A stretch of DNA of 9,425 bases, from contig JAIMZO010000039.1 of the NCBI GenBank assembly GCA_020054965.1, positions 1 through 9,425 of the forward strand. Reading direction: 5' to 3'. Each line of letters starts with the position of its first letter. The stretch's first letter is position 1. The DNA is from Spirochaeta sp. GTDB lineage: Bacteria > Spirochaetota > Spirochaetia > Sphaerochaetales > Sphaerochaetaceae. Shown here piece by piece: positions 1,416 through 9,425 of this stretch. A program made the position numbers and the translations under genes. The notes under the pieces were generated by a model, which was not told where the DNA came from, did no database searches, and was given only the letters and a program-made list of their open reading frames with translations.

Positions 1416-4400
1416 TTAGTCGAACCAAATATGCAAGATAGCAGGATTTTCCTTTGTTGCTTCCACCAATTCATCACAATAGCGCACACTGAACTCCCTG
1501 CCACAGGCAACACTGAGAGGAGACTCCTGTCCCTCTTCCTTGAAGTGGAGCAGGAGAGAACAGGACCCGCCATAGGAGAGGCAGAGGTCCCTGAGCTGTG
1601 TGATGTGTTCATTGTTGCAGAATGATTTCTCCAGTTCAATATGGCATCTGCTTACCGCCACTGGAGCGAGCTGGTTTGGGTCAGCAAGAATCTGCTCGAT
1701 AAGATAGGAGATCTTGTCATTGCCTCGGGAGTTGTCGAATTTCCCTACAAATCCATAGATTCCATCCACCTTGAGAATGTCCCGATACTGTTCATAGGTC
1801 TTTGGGAAGAGTGTTGCATCAAAGGTTGCATTCTTGTCGGTGAGCTGCAGGAATCCCATGACACTGCCCTTTTGGGTGGTGAATGGCCTGATTCCTGTGA
1901 CCATGGCTATGATGTTGACCGGACGGCCAAAGGGAACCTGCTCCAGTTTTGCGGTATTGACAGTCACCCGTTGTGCGATTGCCTGGCTGAATGCATCCAG
2001 TGGATGACCAGAGATATAGAATCCGAGCAGTTCTTTTTCCATCTCCAATTTTTCAGGCAGGTTCCAGTCGGGTACCTCACGCATGGAAAATGTCTCCATG
2101 GCAGCCTCTGTCTCCTCATCGAAGAGCGAGATCTGCCCGAATGCAGTTGCTTCTTTTCGTTTCTGTACATAGGTGATGGCATCACTGAGGTTCTCAAGCA
2201 GGGTGGGGCGGTTGGTTCCCAGTGTATCGAATGCCCCTGCCTTGATCAGTGATTCCAGAAGCTTGGTATTCATCGCCTTGGTATCCAGGCGGGTAAGGAA
2301 GTCAAGCAAGTCCTTGTATGGCCCACGCCCTTCCCTCTCCTTTACAATAAGTTCAACGATCCCCTCGCCCACATTCTTGATACCTGCGAGTCCATAGACA
2401 ATCTTTCCATCAACGACAGAGAAATGTTTGTCCGAGTAGTTGATCGACGGAGGTAGTATTTCCAGCCCATTGTCTTTTGCAACTTGCAAGTACTCACTGA
2501 ACTTATCTGGACTTCCCATCTCATTGGTGAGGTTTGCAGCCCAGAACTCAGCAGGGTAGTTTGCTTTCAGGTATGCTGTCTGGTAGGCCACCACCGAGTA
2601 GGCAACCGCATGACTCTTGTTGAATCCATAGCCTGCAAAGGGTTCCAGCATCTCAAAGATCTCAATGGCATGTTGCTCAGTTCTTCCAAGTGCCTTTGCC
2701 CCTTCAATGAACTTCACCTTCTCCTTTTCCAAGGCTGCAACTTTCTTCTTGCCCATGATACGCCTGAGGATATCAGCGTTGCCGAGAGAGTACCCAGCAA
2801 TAATCTGGGCCACCTTCATTACCTGTTCCTGGTAGACGATGACACCGTAGGTGGTTTTCAGTTCCTCTTCCAGTTCAGGGTTTGCATAGGTGATGGGTTG
2901 TTTGCCAAGTTTGCAGTTGATGAACTGCGGGATATAGGCCATTGGGCCAGGTCTGTAGAGTGCATTCAGGGCAACCAGGTCCTCTATGTTGTTGGGCTTT
3001 GCTTCCTTGAGGATGTTCTGCATTCCTTGGCTTTCAAACTGGAATACCGCGTTGCTCTCACCTCTGCCAAGCATGGCAAAGGTCTTCTCGTCTTGTTCGT
3101 CGATCTCACTTGCATTGAAGGTGGGATCCTTTTTCTTGATCAAGTCTTCGGTATGTTTGACCAGGGTGAGTGTCTTGAGTCCCAGGAAGTCCATCTTCAC
3201 CAACCCACACTCCTCAATGAGGTCCATTGAGTACTGGGTGGAGATGGCTCCGGTCTTCGCGTCACGGTAGAGTGGGACATAGTTGAGCAGGTTCTCCTTG
3301 CCTATGACCACCCCTGCCGCATGGGTGGATGTGTGCCGGTTCAGACCCTCAAGACGGCGTGCCGCATCGAAGAGTTCAGCATAGACCCCTCCCCTCTTTT
3401 CCAGCTCTACCAGATCGTTGTTCTGCTCGAAGGCCTTTGTCAAATTCATCTTCGGGTCATCGGGGATAAGTTTGCAGATATTGTTTGATTCCTCGAAAGG
3501 GATATCCAGTACCCTGGCAACATCCTTCACTACAGCCTTTGCTTTCAGGGTACCGAAAGTGGCAATCTGGGCAACCCGTTCAGTTCCGTAGTGCTCGGTG
3601 ACATAATTGATGACTTCCTGTCTTCTCTCGTAGCAGAAGTCGATATCGAAGTCAGGCATGCTTACCCGTTCAGGGTTGAGGAATCGTTCAAACAGCAGGT
3701 TGTATTTGATCGGATCGACATCGGTTATTCCCAGTGAGTACGCCACAAGGGAACCTGCACCGGAGCCTCTCCCTGGGCCTACTGGGATGTCGTGGTTCTT
3801 TGCCCACTGGATGTAGTCCATGACGATGAGGAAATACCCTTCGAACTGCATCTTGGTGATGATATCGAGTTCGTAATCAAGACGTTTTTGTAGCTCCTCG
3901 GTGATGGTGTCATAGTGTGATCTCAACCCTTTATTGGAGAGATGGCGAAGGTAGTCGGCGGTATCACTGAACTCGGGAGGAACTTCGAAGTTTGGCAGCA
4001 GGGGGCCGGGGAAGTGGATCTCCAGATTGCATCGTTCTGCAATCTTGCCTGTATTCTCTATTGCCTCAGGACACCAACTGAAGAGATCTCTCATCTCCTG
4101 CTCACTCTTCATATAGAATTCCTGGGTGGGAAAACGCATCCTGTTCGGGTCATTCTTCTTGGAGTTCGTGCCAACACAGAGCAGGAGATCATGGGCGTTT
4201 GCATCACTCTTTTCGATGTAGTGGATGTCATTGGTACACACCAAGGGGATACCTGTCTCATCACTGATCTGTTTCAGCAATGGATTGGTTTTCTTCTGTT
4301 CGGGCAGCCCGTGGTCCTGCATTTCCAGGTAGTACCGTCCATCATCGAAGACAGAGGCGAACCACTGTGCCCTCTCCTTTGCCAGATCATACTGGTCGTT

Positions 4401-4883
4401 GAGCAGATGTTGCAGAATCTCACCGCCAAGACAGGCTGAGAGGCAGATCAGACCTTCATTATGCCTGATGAGCAACTCGTCATCAATTCGGGGTTTGAAG
4501 TAAAACCCCTCGGTATAGGAAATCGAGTTGAGTTCCATCAGGTTATGGTATCCCTTTTCATTCATTGCAAGGAGAATGAGATGATACTGGTTGGGTTTTT
4601 TCCCTCCTGGAAGAGGACGCTCTGTATGATCCTTTGGATTGCAGTAGAACTCACACCCTATGATGGGGTTGATCCCTGCATCCTTTGCAGCGTAATAGAA
4701 CCGTAAGGCTCCAAACATGTTCCCATGATCTGTGATGGCCAGGCTCTTCATCCCCAACTCTTTGGCTTTTTCCATGTAGCGGGGAATTGGGGCTGCTCCA
4801 TCGAGCAGGGAAAAATCGGTATGGTTGTGCAGGTGGATGAAGGTACTCTGCATCTCGGTGGATTCTATTTCAGACTCAGCCAT
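1416..4883 (-). CDS. dnaE: DNA polymerase III alpha subunit DnaE (replicative polymerase)
   Basis: Catalytic subunit of the chromosomal replicase, 1155 aa from the ATG at 4883, a full length like E. coli DnaE (1160). The PHP domain is at the N terminus, with HLHNH (H19, H21), TDHG (H53), the GCE motif (E78), then QDHGLPEQKK and CTNDIHY; these metal-binding positions look intact, unlike the degenerate PHP of E. coli. The polymerase palm has PDFDIDF with catalytic D413 and D415, and VKMDFLGL with the third aspartate D565. GPGRGSGAGS, HAAGVVIG, YRPGPM and YQEQVM, typical C-family motifs, are also present. A beta-clamp motif QISLF lies at 917-921, the same place as E. coli QADMF (920-924). An OB-fold region and a C-terminal tail follow. 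The ATG at 4883 is preferred because GGAG lies 9 nt upstream; an in-frame TTG at 4898 and ATG at 4889 are alternatives. The gene follows the flavoprotein-type gene by only 18 nt. Confidence 0.98.
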   Translation of the reverse strand: MAESEIESTEMQSTFIHLHNHTDFSLLDGAAPIPRYMEKAKELGMKSLAITDHGNMFGALRFYYAAKDAGINPIIGCEFYCNPKDHTERPLPGGKKPNQYHLILLAMNEKGYHNLMELNSISYTEGFYFKPRIDDELLIRHNEGLICLSACLGGEILQHLLNDQYDLAKERAQWFASVFDDGRYYLEMQDHGLPEQKKTNPLLKQISDETGIPLVCTNDIHYIEKSDANAHDLLLCVGTNSKKNDPNRMRFPTQEFYMKSEQEMRDLFSWCPEAIENTGKIAERCNLEIHFPGPLLPNFEVPPEFSDTADYLRHLSNKGLRSHYDTITEELQKRLDYELDIITKMQFEGYFLIVMDYIQWAKNHDIPVGPGRGSGAGSLVAYSLGITDVDPIKYNLLFERFLNPERVSMPDFDIDFCYERRQEVINYVTEHYGTERVAQIATFGTLKAKAVVKDVARVLDIPFEESNNICKLIPDDPKMNLTKAFEQNNDLVELEKRGGVYAELFDAARRLEGLNRHTSTHAAGVVIGKENLLNYVPLYRDAKTGAISTQYSMDLIEECGLVKMDFLGLKTLTLVKHTEDLIKKKDPTFNASEIDEQDEKTFAMLGRGESNAVFQFESQGMQNILKEAKPNNIEDLVALNALYRPGPMAYIPQFINCKLGKQPITYANPELEEELKTTYGVIVYQEQVMKVAQIIAGYSLGNADILRRIMGKKKVAALEKEKVKFIEGAKALGRTEQHAIEIFEMLEPFAGYGFNKSHAVAYSVVAYQTAYLKANYPAEFWAANLTNEMGSPDKFSEYLQVAKDNGLEILPPSINYSDKHFSVVDGKIVYGLAGIKNVGEGIVELIVKEREGRGPYKDLLDFLTRLDTKAMNTKLLESLIKAGAFDTLGTNRPTLLENLSDAITYVQKRKEATAFGQISLFDEETEAAMETFSMREVPDWNLPEKLEMEKELLGFYISGHPLDAFSQAIAQRVTVNTAKLEQVPFGRPVNIIAMVTGIRPFTTQKGSVMGFLQLTDKNATFDATLFPKTYEQYRDILKVDGIYGFVGKFDNSRGNDKISYLIEQILADPNQLAPVAVSRCHIELEKSFCNNEHITQLRDLCLSYGGSCSLLLHFKEEGQESPLSVACGREFSVRYCDELVEATKENPAILHIWFD

Positions 4884-4892
4884 GTACATATG

Positions 4893-4896
4893 CTCC
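4893..4896 (-). promoter_or_regulatory. Probable Shine-Dalgarno site of dnaE
   Basis: GGAG on the minus strand, 9 nt before the ATG at 4883. The ATG at 4889 would leave only 3 nt and the TTG at 4898 has no purine-rich site of its own, so this favours 4883. It lies within the 18-nt gap after the preceding gene. Confidence 0.6.
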
Positions 4897-4901
4897 AAGC
4901 A

Positions 4902-5789
4902 TCAGGAGGAGAGCGTCTGTGCGTTGAGTTCATGCAGGAAGGACTCGAAGATTCTCCTGGCACGCTCAAGTTGTAGTTCGCTTATCGCTCCATGCATTTT
5001 TCTTAATTCAGATACCAGCTCATAGGAGAGCGTATTGACCCGTTCTGGATGAATCGGGAGGGTCTGCCCCGACAATTTAGAAACAAGGTCCTTGCTGATA
5101 TGAAAGGCCTTGTTTGGGAACGTCGTGCAAAACTGTACCTTGGAAATGGTATTTTGTGCACGGGTTGCTTGAAACGCAACTATAACACATTCGTCAGTAT
5201 TCCGGATAGGGTCTTCAACGATAATGAACCGTTGGAAATCGCCATATTCGAGCCCGATGCGAATTCTTGTCAACAGGGCTTTTTGTGGGCCGAGCAACAG
5301 CTTCCCATCTTTGTCGTAGAGCTTGGCAATCGGGATCCAGTGGGTGGTTGTCTTTCCCCCTTGGTAGTATTTTACCTCGGCATTTGCATCCAGAATGGCC
5401 AGAGTCGTTGACAACCCAAAGCGAATATCAGGGACACAGAGGTTTCCCCCTATGGTGGTCTGTCTTCTCACAATCTGTGAGGCCTGGCTTTGCAAGGTTT
5501 TCTGGAGAATCTCAGGGAGGACCAGTTTTCCTGCATACAGCAACTGACTTGCAGTGACCATTGCCCCGATTTCAACGAAACGATCATTTCTGGTGATGCG
5601 TTTCAACTCCTCAAGCTCATCAAGATTGATGATACCATCCTTGATCTCACTAGGATAGTAGTCCTTCTGGCTCATCAGATACGTTCCACCTCCCCAGATG
5701 ACGGCTTGGGGATATCGATGGGCAATGGTTGCAAATTCGCTCAGTGTCTTGGGGGTATGGATGACAGGAGACCTAATGCCTTCGTACAC
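4902..5789 (-). CDS. FAD-binding medium subunit of a molybdenum-hydroxylase-like complex
   Basis: 295 aa, the usual length of CoxM/XdhB-type flavoprotein subunits that pass electrons from iron-sulfur clusters to FAD and then an acceptor. The N-terminal half is the FAD_binding_5-type domain: GGGTYLM at 33-39 corresponds to the common AGGTDLL pyrophosphate loop, and QIVRRQTTIGGNL (105-117) corresponds to the QIRN.ATIGGN motif, followed by a D and a 'LDANAEVKYYQGG' stretch. The C-terminal half (about 175-285) resembles the CO_deh_flav_C domain. The start is GTG at 5789, with AGGAGG 7 nt upstream. The gene overlaps the iron-sulfur gene by 17 nt, indicating coupled translation and a shared complex. 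The usual Asp of GGTD is a Tyr (Y37), so FAD binding is likely but not certain. The substrate is unknown, and no gene symbol is justified. Confidence 0.85.
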   Translation of the reverse strand: MYEGIRSPVIHTPKTLSEFATIAHRYPQAVIWGGGTYLMSQKDYYPSEIKDGIINLDELEELKRITRNDRFVEIGAMVTASQLLYAGKLVLPEILQKTLQSQASQIVRRQTTIGGNLCVPDIRFGLSTTLAILDANAEVKYYQGGKTTTHWIPIAKLYDKDGKLLLGPQKALLTRIRIGLEYGDFQRFIIVEDPIRNTDECVIVAFQATRAQNTISKVQFCTTFPNKAFHISKDLVSKLSGQTLPIHPERVNTLSYELVSELRKMHGAISELQLERARRIFESFLHELNAQTLSS

Positions 5790-6324
5790 GTTTACGCCTC
5801 CTATAGGTGAGGGCTATCTCAACAATCTGCAGTAATTCAGCCATATCCATGCACTGGCATGTATTCAGGCTGAGTTCTTGGATAATTGCTTCCTTGTCCA
5901 AGGGAGCCTCATCGTTTTGGCCTCCTGCAAGTGGAAGATTGTTTCTCCCAAATGTACGGTTGCGTGTATTATTGGTCATTTCTTGCAGGATGGATTCAAT
6001 GATCAGTGTCTTGGATGCATAGCAATTGGGACACGGGGTGTTTCCTGTGGCCTTGTAGGCACGTTCAATATCTCGGTAGAGGCGTGTTTTCTGGTAACTG
6101 TCAAAGGTTTTGACTGTTGCCTCCCTGAGACGGAATGCAGGAATGACGCAGGAAAGTGTTGCCTCGTCATTGAGTAGAACGATGCAGTTTCCGCAGGCCT
6201 TTCCTCTGCAGTGGCTATTGATGCTGGTTATCCCCACATCCTCCATGAGAATGAGTGAGAGGGGCTTGTTTGAGTTGACTGAGAGGGAGAGTGCCTTCCC
6301 GTCTATTGTGCATTCAATTTTCAT
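5773..6324 (-). CDS. [2Fe-2S] small subunit of a molybdenum-hydroxylase-like complex
   Basis: 183 aa, CoxS/XdhC-like electron-transfer subunit. The N-terminal plant-ferredoxin-type domain carries C39-x4-C44-x2-C47-x11-C59 with the expected spacing. The C-terminal [2Fe-2S]_2-type domain carries C98-PN-C101 and C156-Q-C158, so all eight cluster ligands are present. The gap from C59 to C98 matches the family. The gap from C101 to C156 is about 55 residues instead of about 32, because of an Asn/Gly-rich insertion around 116-139. The usual Gln just before the CxxC is Pro97. The ATG at 6324 has AGAGG 6 nt upstream and overlaps the stop of the large-subunit gene as ATGA. The 3' end overlaps the FAD gene by 17 nt, and the last ten residues are very arginine-rich. 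The family is clear; the partner substrate is unknown. Confidence 0.9.
   Translation of the reverse strand: MKIECTIDGKALSLSVNSNKPLSLILMEDVGITSINSHCRGKACGNCIVLLNDEATLSCVIPAFRLREATVKTFDSYQKTRLYRDIERAYKATGNTPCPNCYASKTLIIESILQEMTNNTRNRTFGRNNLPLAGGQNDEAPLDKEAIIQELSLNTCQCMDMAELLQIVEIALTYRRRKRVRRH
5797..5802 (-). promoter_or_regulatory. Shine-Dalgarno site of the FAD subunit, inside the iron-sulfur gene
   Basis: AGGAGG on the minus strand, 7 nt before the GTG at 5789. It lies within the last codons of the upstream iron-sulfur gene, where it encodes part of the Arg-Arg-Arg tail. Its strength makes the GTG start convincing despite the rare start codon. Confidence 0.85.
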
Positions 6325-8279
6325 ACATTACCTCTGAGGGCTTCAAGCAAGGTTCCTCCATCCACTGGGATTTTCCCGACCGGATAACCAAGGGCTTGTT
6401 CAAGGGCTGAGATAAATGCACTGGTGATTACCCCTTTCAAGGCACTGGTGATTGAAGAAGAAATCTGCTGGCCTTCATCTTTTATGGTGATCTCAATATT
6501 GAACGTATCGCTATGGCTCAAGAGTGCTCCTGCCTCCCTGAGCGTAGTGACGATTGTGTGGCGGATCTTGCTTCTGAGGCTCTGTTCATCAAACACCCTG
6601 GAGAGGGACACAGCACACCAAACCCTTCTTACCAGAGGCTGCAACGTGACCGATTCGATCTCCAGTTCCAAGGCAGTTGCCACCCAGCTGTTGCTGAGAA
6701 ACATGGAGCCTTTCATCCCTGGTTGTTTCGCTGAGAGCACACTTTCACAGATGGGAAGTGGTTGGACAAATCGTTTCTCCTTGATTAGGGAGCAAGCCTT
6801 CTGAATCTGTTGTGGCATTCTTCCACTATTGGCGGACAATACTGAAGGGCCGCTGTCGAGCATATCTTTTTGTTCCTCAACAAAGGAGATGTCGCTTTTT
6901 GCTACCTGTAGTTCCTCACTGATGATCTGTTTCCAGATCTCGGCGCTTGATCCTATGGTGTAGAAAGAGGTGTTCACTTCGACCTTGTTGTTTGGATTGA
7001 GGGTAATCTGTACAGGTTGTTGTGGCAGGGAGCGGCATTCACTGCTGAATCCGCTGATTCCAGCTCCACAGGCAAGTGCAACCCCCCTGCTGTAGTTGAA
7101 GAAGGTTGAGAGTTTGACGCGCATCTGGGCTTGCATCCCATAGGCGGCGTTTTTTCTCTGGAAGTCGCTAGAGTCGCTTACTGTGGTTATGAGTTCCTTG
7201 AGTTTTGCATATTTGCCTGAACGGATGACCTGACTGTGTGAGGTACTCTCTGAAGCAAATTTCAACCTCCAGGTGAGGGGATTGTACCCACTGATTTTTG
7301 CCAAGGCACTGTAGTGGGATTCTGTTGAGCAGAGTGCATCACTGTAACCTAGGTCACCAAAGAAATGGGCTGGTCTTTTTCGAGAGGTGTTGAATGTAAT
7401 GGATATGCTTAACGCCATCAGGCTATACAGCGGTACCAAGCCGGCAATCAGTTGATTGGCCATCTCATCACTGAAAAATGAGACACTCCCTTGGTCGACT
7501 CCTACCTCGATTGATTCAGCTTGGGCCCGACCGTCGTTGAAGAACCAGGTCTTTCGTTTGATGGTGAGGTCGGGGCACATGCTCTCTGCATTGACAAGCA
7601 TCTCGACCGGGCAGTTGCCTTTCAGGCAGGCAATGGAAGCAATGGCACACATGGTGCTCGGTGTGATGAGCATCTCGTCATGTGGGGCAAAGAACGGTTT
7701 GCGATGGATTACAATGCGGCGTTTGGGAATACCTGTAACATCACTGACGGTCTCCCTGACATGGCTTGGCCACTGTGTAGGCGTGGTGATATGCAGGATG
7801 TCATCCTCAAGCACTACACTGATACGGGAGAGCGTATTGCTCTCATAATTGCTCCCGCTATAGCGATAGGTACGTTCGAGCACTTCCAGCCCCTCGTCCT
7901 TGATGGCTTCCTCCAGGTTGCCGAATTGGAAGGAGAAGGGTTTCGCCTCCACTGGAGGAGACTCCTCCTCACCACTGGGAAGTCGGTAAGAGATATTGAT
8001 TTCCTTGCTTTTAAGCTGGACAGACTCAGTGTCATACCCAAAGAGGGCAAGAATGGGTTGGTGATAGTACGAGATGACCGAGGAGGTGAGCAGGGGGGTG
8101 GAGGCATCCAAGACGCGCACGCGGTTTGTTCCCGGGATATCCCTGGTGGTGACCAATACAAAGTTGTTGTCCAATGCAGGTAGTGAGATTTCCTCTATTC
8201 GGCCGGCATCGACCGATGAGGTGACGATGTAGCCGTGAAGGGTGGTCACCTTGCCTGTCGATGATCGTTTTTCTGCCAT
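6321..8279 (-). CDS. Divergent molybdopterin-binding-type large subunit (xanthine dehydrogenase / aldehyde oxidase family)
   Basis: 652 aa from the ATG at 8279 (GAGAGG 8 nt upstream); family members are usually about 750-790 aa. The N-terminal a/b-hammerhead domain is recognisable: LHGYIVTS, VTTRDIPGTN and ISYYHQPILALFGYD match 'VLTa.DvPG.N' and 'V.Y.GQPia'. The large domain follows with PTQWPSHVRETVSDVTGIP, like the 'stQ.p......iA..lgiP' region. The usual cofactor motifs are altered. The GGGFGGK site reads KPFFAPHDE (194-202), the RGFG.PQ site reads FFGDLGYSDA (306-315), and the C-terminal GE with catalytic Glu appears as EGQQ (602-605). The complete open frame and tight coupling to the two partner subunits argue against a pseudogene. 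It is first in the operon, with a promoter just upstream. Family membership is well supported by context and fold. Whether it binds molybdopterin or hydroxylates anything is unclear. Confidence 0.8.
   Translation of the reverse strand: MAEKRSSTGKVTTLHGYIVTSSVDAGRIEEISLPALDNNFVLVTTRDIPGTNRVRVLDASTPLLTSSVISYYHQPILALFGYDTESVQLKSKEINISYRLPSGEEESPPVEAKPFSFQFGNLEEAIKDEGLEVLERTYRYSGSNYESNTLSRISVVLEDDILHITTPTQWPSHVRETVSDVTGIPKRRIVIHRKPFFAPHDEMLITPSTMCAIASIACLKGNCPVEMLVNAESMCPDLTIKRKTWFFNDGRAQAESIEVGVDQGSVSFFSDEMANQLIAGLVPLYSLMALSISITFNTSRKRPAHFFGDLGYSDALCSTESHYSALAKISGYNPLTWRLKFASESTSHSQVIRSGKYAKLKELITTVSDSSDFQRKNAAYGMQAQMRVKLSTFFNYSRGVALACGAGISGFSSECRSLPQQPVQITLNPNNKVEVNTSFYTIGSSAEIWKQIISEELQVAKSDISFVEEQKDMLDSGPSVLSANSGRMPQQIQKACSLIKEKRFVQPLPICESVLSAKQPGMKGSMFLSNSWVATALELEIESVTLQPLVRRVWCAVSLSRVFDEQSLRSKIRHTIVTTLREAGALLSHSDTFNIEITIKDEGQQISSSITSALKGVITSAFISALEQALGYPVGKIPVDGGTLLEALRGNV
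6331..6335 (-). promoter_or_regulatory. Shine-Dalgarno site of the iron-sulfur subunit
   Basis: AGAGG on the minus strand, 6 nt before the ATG at 6324, lying within the end of the large-subunit gene. Together with the ATGA stop-start overlap it fixes the start of the small subunit. Confidence 0.7.
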
Positions 8280-8354: not shown

Positions 8355-8383
8355 TTGCAAGGCAAGGGTGCAAACCGTACAAT
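8355..8383 (+). promoter_or_regulatory. Predicted sigma70-type promoter of ligA
   Basis: -35 TTGCAA (8355-8360) and -10 TACAAT (8378-8383) with a 17-nt spacer; the -10 matches consensus at 5 of 6 positions and the -35 at 4 of 6. The expected start of transcription, about 7 nt after the -10, coincides with the ligA ATG at 8391, predicting an mRNA with essentially no leader. The two divergent -35 elements are 22 nt apart. Confidence 0.6.
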
Positions 8384-8390
8384 TGGGGCT

Positions 8391-9425
8391 ATGAATACCC
8401 CTGAAGCATCACACCTCGATGAGGTTCGTTCCCTGATAGACCAGCTTTCACGCTACCAGAGGGCATACTATGTCGATAACCAGCCCTTGGTAAGCGACGC
8501 AGAATATGACCGTCTCTTTGACCGATTGCAAGATTTGGAGAGTCGGTATCCCTCCCTGCGTTTTCCAGATTCCCCCACCCAGAGGGTTGGCAGTGATCTT
8601 GATGCAACCTTTCCCGAAGTGCAACACACCATCCCGGTGCTGAGCCTTGACAAGGTGTATGCCGCTCATGAACTACTCTCCTGGATTGAGCGAACGGAAA
8701 CGAGGGTTTCCCGTGATCTTGGGATTGTCATCGAGGAGAAGATAGATGGCATCTCCATTGTGCTCTATTACGAGGAAGGATATCTGGTACGGGCTGTAAC
8801 GCGAGGCAATGGGACCATCGGGAATGATGTAACGGCCAATGTAAAAACGATTGCTTCCATCCCATTGCATCTGGGTGAACCAGTAACGGTGGCCGTTAGG
8901 GGCGAGGTCTACCTTCCGAAAGACAAGTTCGAAACGCTCAACTCCCAGATGGAGGTTCCCTATGCAAATCCAAGAAACCTTGCTGCTGGAACCATTAGAA
9001 GGATCAAGAGCAGTGAGGTGGCAAAAGTTCCCCTCCAGATATTTGTCTATGAAGGCTTCTGGGATGGGGAGACTGGGATCAAGGACCACCTCTCCATTCT
9101 CAGCAAGCTGGTTCACTATGGGTTTCGGGTGAATCCAAACCTCGGTTACTTTACCAAATCTGCAGAGAGGGCAAAGGTACAACTGAAAGAGGCCGACCTG
9201 GATGGGGTTGGTGGCAGCTACGAAGATATCGCCACCTATATTCAGCTCCATACCGACAGACGAGCTTCACTTGGGTATGAAATAGATGGCCTGGTGGCCA
9301 AGGTAAATGAACTTGAGGTCCGTTCCCAACTTGGTTATACAGCCCATCATCCACGATGGGCGATGGCTTACAAGTTTGAATCTCCCCAGGCTCAGACAAC
9401 CTTGCTCGCCATTGATCTTCAGGTC
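8391..9425 (+). CDS. ligA: NAD-dependent DNA ligase LigA, N-terminal half (runs off the right edge)
   Basis: Seals nicks between Okazaki fragments and in repair using NAD. The 345 codons present cover domain Ia and the adenylation domain; the OB-fold, zinc finger, HhH and BRCT parts lie beyond the edge. Domain Ia has YYVDNQPLVSDAEYDRL (26-42) and DSPTQRVG (60-67), which bind the nicotinamide mononucleotide half of NAD. Motif I is EEKIDG with nucleophile K117 (K115 in E. coli). RGEVYLP has E172, NPRNLAAGTIRR has R195 and R203, and YEIDGLVAKV has K304. PRWAMAYKFE follows. In the normally conserved TRGDG..GED stretch this protein has TRGNGTIGND (137-146), two Asp/Glu to Asn changes. The ATG at 8391 is the only sensible start: the next in-frame ATG is residue 187 and the Ia domain begins right after the start. 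There is no good Shine-Dalgarno, only GGGG 2 nt upstream. Confidence 0.96.
   Translation, partial: MNTPEASHLDEVRSLIDQLSRYQRAYYVDNQPLVSDAEYDRLFDRLQDLESRYPSLRFPDSPTQRVGSDLDATFPEVQHTIPVLSLDKVYAAHELLSWIERTETRVSRDLGIVIEEKIDGISIVLYYEEGYLVRAVTRGNGTIGNDVTANVKTIASIPLHLGEPVTVAVRGEVYLPKDKFETLNSQMEVPYANPRNLAAGTIRRIKSSEVAKVPLQIFVYEGFWDGETGIKDHLSILSKLVHYGFRVNPNLGYFTKSAERAKVQLKEADLDGVGGSYEDIATYIQLHTDRRASLGYEIDGLVAKVNELEVRSQLGYTAHHPRWAMAYKFESPQAQTTLLAIDLQV

Follow-up and report, generated by a model that had tools for sequence, protein, structure and literature searches.

Large subunits of the xanthine oxidase (XO) family of molybdenum (Mo) hydroxylases, such as XdhA/XdhB, CoxL, AOR/MOP and the alpha subunit of 4-hydroxybenzoyl-CoA reductase, carry the motifs GGxFGGK, RGFG..Q and GxKGxGE. 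The GGxFGGK loop is a hallmark of these hydroxylases, and it was also present in all 17 canonical paralogues compared here. The spirochaete family described below, by contrast, contains none of the three motifs in any of 93 members, occurs where MoaC was not found, and is represented in our window by a protein that also lacks the DRxED loop. Among the canonical paralogues scored, a Spirochaetia protein of 703-748 aa (type B, e.g., L045 and L036) gave the highest family-profile scores. It shares with the family the gene order of large subunit (LSU), iron-sulphur (FeS) subunit and FAD subunit, whereas its molybdenum cofactor (Moco) motifs are intact, and all of the canonical subunits group apart from the family in the tree with good support.

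Orphan molybdoproteins, i.e., XO-family proteins without a complete Moco pathway, are described in PMC6147048 as occurring in several hundred organisms, where they belong mostly to the XO and DMSOR families. That paper raises a Mo-independent form as one possibility, states that no sequence-level feature setting the orphans apart could be identified, and asks in its Discussion for studies of whether Mo is used by the orphan members of the XO family in the first place. The spirochaete family differs from these orphans in having plain sequence features; the comparison draws on the text of that paper. In its terms, a spirochaete family free of Moco motifs is a clear and testable case for the orphan question. 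We recognised no published description of the family in the open-licence literature searched.

The window, i.e., the whole stretch of DNA analysed, comprises 9,425 nucleotides of a Spirochaeta sp. contig (JAIMZO010000039.1). Its features are as follows.

6321..8279, minus strand: large subunit of MoCoBD type (652 aa) with replaced Moco motifs (open frame, 8279 to 6321)
7671..7691, minus strand: F197-APHDE-M203, replacing GGxFGGK (alignments; FFAPHDEML ranks within the top twelve 9-mers by conservation in 32 Sphaerochaeta-type members)
7587..7592, minus strand: site of the six-residue DRxED-loop deletion, after residue 230 (alignments)
7338..7361, minus strand: F307-GDLGYS-D314, replacing FRGFGxxQ (alignments; AHFFGDLGY tops the 9-mer list of the 53-member Sphaerochaetaceae-type set)
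6444..6464, minus strand: I606-SSSIT-S612, replacing GAKGxGE, with Ser612 at the position of the catalytic Glu (alignments)
5773..6324, minus strand: iron-sulphur subunit, 183 aa, with the full set of eight Cys for the two [2Fe-2S] sites (Pfam/NCBIfam scans, Cys columns)
4902..5789, minus strand: FAD subunit, 295 aa, with GGGT and TIGGN motifs kept (Pfam/NCBIfam scans, motif reading)
1416..4898, minus strand: dnaE, directly 3' in the same gene run (ORF list, Pfam)
8355..9425, plus strand: 5' part of ligA, a divergent neighbour starting at 8355 (ORF list, Pfam)

The large subunit gene stands first in the minus-strand run (8279-6321), followed by the FeS (6324-5773), FAD (5789-4902) and dnaE (4898-1416) genes, and successive genes of the run overlap or stand a few bases apart. 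A preliminary description had given the coordinates of the large subunit gene correctly, and the strand is the minus one. Named matches at 91-96% were Sphaerochaeta and Sphaerochaetaceae records, which places the window in Sphaerochaeta or a very near relative.

The cofactor motifs were located by a profile-profile alignment of 93 family members with 17 canonical paralogues (E = 2.6e-99), besides two MAFFT alignments. The canonical set consisted of 16 proteins from spirochaete-class genomes and P0090 from the protein search. The 93-member set left out P0086-P0090, some other protein-search hits, and L124, L132, L134, L136, L138 and L139; among these rows, P0090 is a canonical protein, while GIGE survives in P0088 and GGKGIGE in L134. 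In the window protein, GGAFGAK aligned on FAPHDEM (197-203) and FRGFGAPQ on FGDLGYSD (307-314), with the Arg of RGFG falling on Gly308. Both loops thus lie where the preliminary description had read KPFFAPHDE and FFGDLGYSDA. The third assignment moved: GAKGAGE aligned on ISSSITS (606-612), so that the catalytic GE corresponds to Thr611-Ser612, eight residues from the GQ (603-604) earlier taken for it, and we rejected that dipeptide as a GE remnant. The DRxED loop has been removed by the deletion after residue 230, and nothing in the window protein corresponds to the GQG and GGxxQG stretches in the profile-profile alignment. We also sought, at the sequence level, an intact GGGFGGK-like loop and a catalytic Glu elsewhere in the chain, and the reading of motif loss held.

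Pattern counts agreed with the alignments. Each of the three motif patterns (GGxFGGK, RGFG..Q, and GxKGxGE) was found in 0 of the 93 family members and in 17/17 canonical paralogues, a difference that is not due to chance. A loose C-terminal GxGE was left in 8/93. Looser motif patterns were used for a broader set of 108 large subunits from the tree, as strict patterns had overlooked variant forms of the second or the third motif that several canonical proteins carry. This set was split into 38 proteins with GGxFGxK and 70 without, and GGxFG is accordingly no test within it. The Arg motif occurred in 0/70 versus 34/38 and the glutamate motif in 1/70 (L134) versus 37/38, while a loose GxGE remained in 12 of the 70. 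Motif loss is graded: L129 and L136 keep PFEGK or PFGGK together with the DRxED loop, and the Sphaerochaetaceae have gone furthest. All canonical subunits formed one clade (support 0.999); the tree has no outgroup, so the family is monophyletic only under a root placed on the side of the canonical clade.

The overall fold appears to have outlasted the motifs. The window protein scored above the Pfam cut-off of 27 for both MoCoBD_1 (43.1 bits) and MoCoBD_2 (35.2 bits), and the structure prediction contained a complete two-domain MoCoBD large-subunit shape. Ald_Xan_dh_C reached 17.5 bits, short of the 31.3 that its cut-off requires; the earlier statement that the N-terminal hammerhead motifs are good was too strong, though this part of the fold is predicted to be present. 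None of the NCBIfam equivalogs (XdhA, Se_dep_XDH, Se_sel_red_Mo, and others) exceeded its cut-off, the best giving 44.2 bits against 849.5. The chain is about 100 residues shorter than XdhA-type models of 758 positions, as had been noted, and about 60 shorter than a 714-aa canonical paralogue. As a candidate large subunit of a Mo hydroxylase, the window protein has neither GGxFGGK nor RGFG..Q nor the catalytic Glu. The cofactor motifs likewise fail for the selenium-dependent Mo hydroxylases, and no SelD/YqeB/YqeC-type accessory gene was found among the seven window proteins scanned; YqeB and YqeC occur at other loci in related genomes. Since the residues responsible for molybdopterin binding and water activation have been exchanged in a chain predicted to fold like a Moco subunit, Mo-based hydroxylation very probably does not take place, and by its sequence the protein belongs to a divergent subfamily that is very probably not a normal Mo hydroxylase. 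We consider it highly likely that the window protein contains no Moco. Source records name family proteins "molybdopterin cofactor-binding", "molybdopterin-dependent oxidoreductase", "CO/xanthine dehydrogenase Mo-binding subunit" or "aldehyde oxidase", and a single row says "hypothetical"; under such names they may be counted as molybdoenzymes. None of the cofactor motifs tested is present in the window protein.

The gene is under selection, as previously proposed. The large subunit gave dN/dS values of 0.050-0.079 (nine rows from six different loci, of which three had been retrieved twice), compared with 0.013-0.038 for the FeS and 0.020-0.057 for the FAD subunit (five rows each; 0.013-0.057 for the partners together) and 0.024-0.032 for dnaE (four rows). 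Constraint is uneven along the chain. Among 53 Sphaerochaetaceae-type sequences, the loop replacing RGFG (303-316) lay at conservation percentile 99.8, residues 399-413 at 97.5, and the loop replacing GGxFGGK (194-208) at 86, while the replacement of GxKGxGE (603-613) had a value of 58 and the remnant of the DRxED loop one of 5. Across the full 93-member set, the replacement loops stood at 95.6 (303-316), 71.6 (194-208), and 34 (603-613). These percentiles suggest that the pocket has been partly rebuilt and held, with no special conservation of the C-terminal loop. The high conservation of the RGFG-replacing loop and the above-average conservation of the GGxFGGK-replacing loop imply that the pocket probably binds something else.

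The partner subunits that Mo hydroxylases require are intact in the window: the FeS subunit has 8/8 Cys for both [2Fe-2S] sites, and the FAD motifs are complete. Across the family, each FeS Cys position is occupied in 55-58 of 61 members versus 9/9 canonical paralogues. The FAD motif GG[TS] is kept in 43/55 members (9/9 canonical) and TxGG in 49/55 (7/9 canonical); L079 and the Borrelia protein of L140 have neither. As the flavin and cluster motifs are intact in Sphaerochaeta, a flavin/iron-sulphur oxidoreductase is the most likely working form there.

These observations are best accommodated by an old cofactor-free branch of the XO family, widespread in Spirochaetia, with [2Fe-2S] and FAD subunits of its own. 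The former cofactor pocket is not simply decaying, and a putative new ligand or a partner protein would probably be bound there. Electrons may enter at FAD and pass through the clusters to (or from) whatever occupies the remodelled large subunit, and members that have lost clusters may retain only the binding or scaffold part of the complex. Taken whole, the statement that the window encodes a cofactor-free XO-family offshoot with a rebuilt pocket and flavin/iron-sulphur redox activity in Sphaerochaeta has, in our judgement, about an even chance of being right. More tentatively, and with somewhat less than an even chance, a Moco-free XO subfamily may have arisen in or before Spirochaetia, replaced its Mo pocket by a new, conserved site for a ligand, and been kept down to Borrelia and a 1.1-Mb genome that we take to be of Treponema type. 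Under such a history, the Mo-hydroxylase fold would have been put to use independently of Mo, and the other cofactors would have been lost stepwise in separate lineages.

The preliminary description had offered either a divergent subfamily or a non-hydroxylating scaffold. Divergence and retention with electron-transfer partners are borne out, and the description can be made more precise: the family is widespread in Spirochaetia, occurs where Moco genes were not found, and has strong conservation, not decay, in part of its pocket. FeS sites are incomplete in 11/61 members. If the trimer were a pseudoenzyme kept for its shape or for a protein-protein role, FAD and the clusters would be leftovers that erode where they are unneeded. 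Erosion of this kind is observed: neither [2Fe-2S] site is whole in L115 (Parasphaerochaeta coccoides), L123 and L067 (one or two Cys left), the first site is broken in L130, L139 and Borrelia L140, and the second in L065 and L069, while L132, L134 and L138 are missing one Cys of the second. In Borrelia, the FAD motifs are lost as well and the three genes persist. The scattered loss of FeS ligands indicates that clusters and electron transfer are not a need common to all lineages, and argues against a redox role shared by the whole family. However, all eight Cys are kept in 50/61 members, the FAD motifs survive in most, and the Sphaerochaeta FeS subunit is strongly constrained by its dN/dS. 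We regard the pure scaffold as possible but rather unlikely.

The distribution of the family bears on a third reading, in which the large subunit would still be an enzyme of Moco, or of another pterin or nucleotide, with the cofactor held by different residues. We surveyed 248 Spirochaetia genomes with a completeness of 90% or more. The family profile matched in 212, a count to which canonical paralogues can contribute, MoCoBD_1 in 207, and MoaC in 68. The best MoCoBD_1 value per genome showed a gap, with 127 genomes below 1e-65 and 80 above 1e-55; we took the latter as family-only, including six that list two weak-range MoCoBD_1 matches. All 80, among them Parasphaerochaeta coccoides, matched the family profile at 7.5e-62 or better. 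Among 29 near-full-length members fetched from these genomes, the first two motifs were lacking in 29/29 and the glutamate motif in 28/29, the exception being L134; a thirtieth (from G046) is only partial. MoaC was found in 10 of the 80 and not found in 70. It was also not found in 70 of the 127 canonical-range genomes, Sphaerochaetaceae among them (57 had it, a number that excludes G065, with MoaC and no MoCoBD_1 match), so lack of MoaC is not a mark of the motif-free family alone. In a set of 60 genomes, seven were family-only, and MoaC, MoeA, MoaE and XdhC_CoxI were not found in five of these seven. MoaA (TIGR02666) passed its cut-off in 5/60 genomes and was uninformative at E 0.001, because relatives match in 58/60. 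Spirochaetes share a stripped-down three-gene set, which is kept even in genomes where genes for making the cofactor were not found.

Within the genus Sphaerochaeta itself, canonical large subunits and XdhC/YqeB/YqeC genes are also present, so Moco may exist in the Sphaerochaeta cell, although MoaC or MoeA was not seen in most of these genomes. For this reason, we rejected missing Moco synthesis in Sphaerochaeta as proof for the window protein and moved the argument to the family-only genomes. The full predicted fold, the canonical enzymes and XdhC-type chaperones of the genus, the GxGE of some members, GGKGIGE in L134, and the partial loops of L129 and L136 speak for a cofactor held differently. 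Set against them are the loss in the window protein of all three motifs, the DRxED loop and the GQG/GGxxQG counterparts, and the persistence of the family in the family-only genomes where MoaC, and in most of the smaller set also MoeA, MoaE and XdhC_CoxI, went undetected. On balance, a retained Moco or pterin enzyme is improbable. A decaying relic held by its place in a dnaE operon, as dnaE lying close in 25/43 loci and the strong erosion in Borrelia might suggest, is hardly credible, being contradicted by the dN/dS of the large subunit, by the strongly conserved RGFG-replacing loop, and by the persistence of the three genes in the 18/43 loci where dnaE does not adjoin.

The family-profile E-value alone was rejected as a mark of the family; a canonical relative (G057:C32) reaches 8.2e-122, so we read the motifs instead. 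A small check outside the class, covering four genomes, gave no sign of the family beyond Spirochaetia: the matching proteins (L165-L168) carried canonical GGxFGGK and RGFG in 4/4 and the strict glutamate pattern in 2/4.

Gene neighbourhoods were compared over 43 loci, some with a short upstream flank, using Pfam names for neighbours taken from five loci. Where dnaE was counted as close, it lay less than 400 bases past the FAD gene. A DegT aminotransferase gene stood immediately upstream of the large subunit gene in 22/43 loci, preceded by a Polysacc_synt_2 gene in 20/43. We considered whether this neighbour might be a [2Fe-2S] dehydrase fed by the complex, a DegT type that we take to belong to deoxysugar chemistry, and rejected the idea: the Lys of ordinary aminotransferases was present in 5/5 DegT proteins tested. 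No sugar genes were seen in the fetched Sphaerochaetaceae loci of the set; several of these had dnaE adjoining and ligA in the stretch, and L058-L061, L085 and L086 had no adjoining dnaE. The neighbourhood is taken as an old gene arrangement, not as proof of a common pathway.

A further candidate relative is a Borrelia protein of about 615 aa (34 entries, four of them shorter at 349-590 aa), whose named entries are Borrelia or Borreliella hypothetical proteins. It reached 22 bits with the family HMM, yet its profile aligned with that of the family over 571 columns (E = 1.2e-16). In L140 and L145, the gene is followed by an FeS-like gene and a weak FAD_binding_5 gene, with ligA in the stretch; the FeS-like gene has lost the first site and keeps CENC...CYC. 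The profile match and the partner-like genes resemble the family, whereas in L140 no Pfam Moco domain was found in the protein and the first [2Fe-2S] site and the FAD motifs are missing. The AF2 model was poor (pLDDT 53, pTM 0.36), and all 50 Foldseek matches listed for it were XO-family proteins with a TM of about 0.2; with such a model and such low TM values, the Borrelia link rests on the profile match, which connects a hypothetical protein found throughout Borrelia with a known fold.

The large subunit-FeS-FAD operon has a remote counterpart in Borrelia, and an FeS subunit gene with lost cluster ligands was located in Parasphaerochaeta coccoides:

Locus L145, 7372-10542: remote Borrelia counterpart of the operon
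Locus L115, 3522-4076: FeS subunit gene of Parasphaerochaeta coccoides

At the Borrelia locus, a hypothetical protein of ~615 aa, found Borrelia-wide, is followed by FeS-like and FAD-like genes. This gene set is a remote version of the operon. In the FeS subunit of P. coccoides, both [2Fe-2S] sites have lost their ligands, with one of the eight Cys residues left, whereas the FAD motifs at this locus are retained.

In many Spirochaetia families, the genes directly upstream of the operon encode a Polysacc_synt_2 dehydratase and a DegT aminotransferase; the DegT gene was seen at 22 loci (for example, L063, L146, L147, L152, and L154). At several loci, there is overlap with the large-subunit gene.

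The 25 genomes sampled from the genus Sphaerochaeta (G001-G025) all contain a canonical-range MoCoBD_1 match, and 24 carry XdhC_CoxI genes. Nevertheless, MoaC was detected in just two of the 25 genomes; a single genome gave a MoeA match, which was partial and lay where a contig ends, and MoaE was detected in none. The loci considered within this genus were L041, L095, and L104-L106. Two large subunits of G013 (L104 and L106) scored above the cut-offs of the NCBIfam models Se_dep_XDH, Se_sel_red_Mo, and XdhA, as did one large subunit of G006 (L041).
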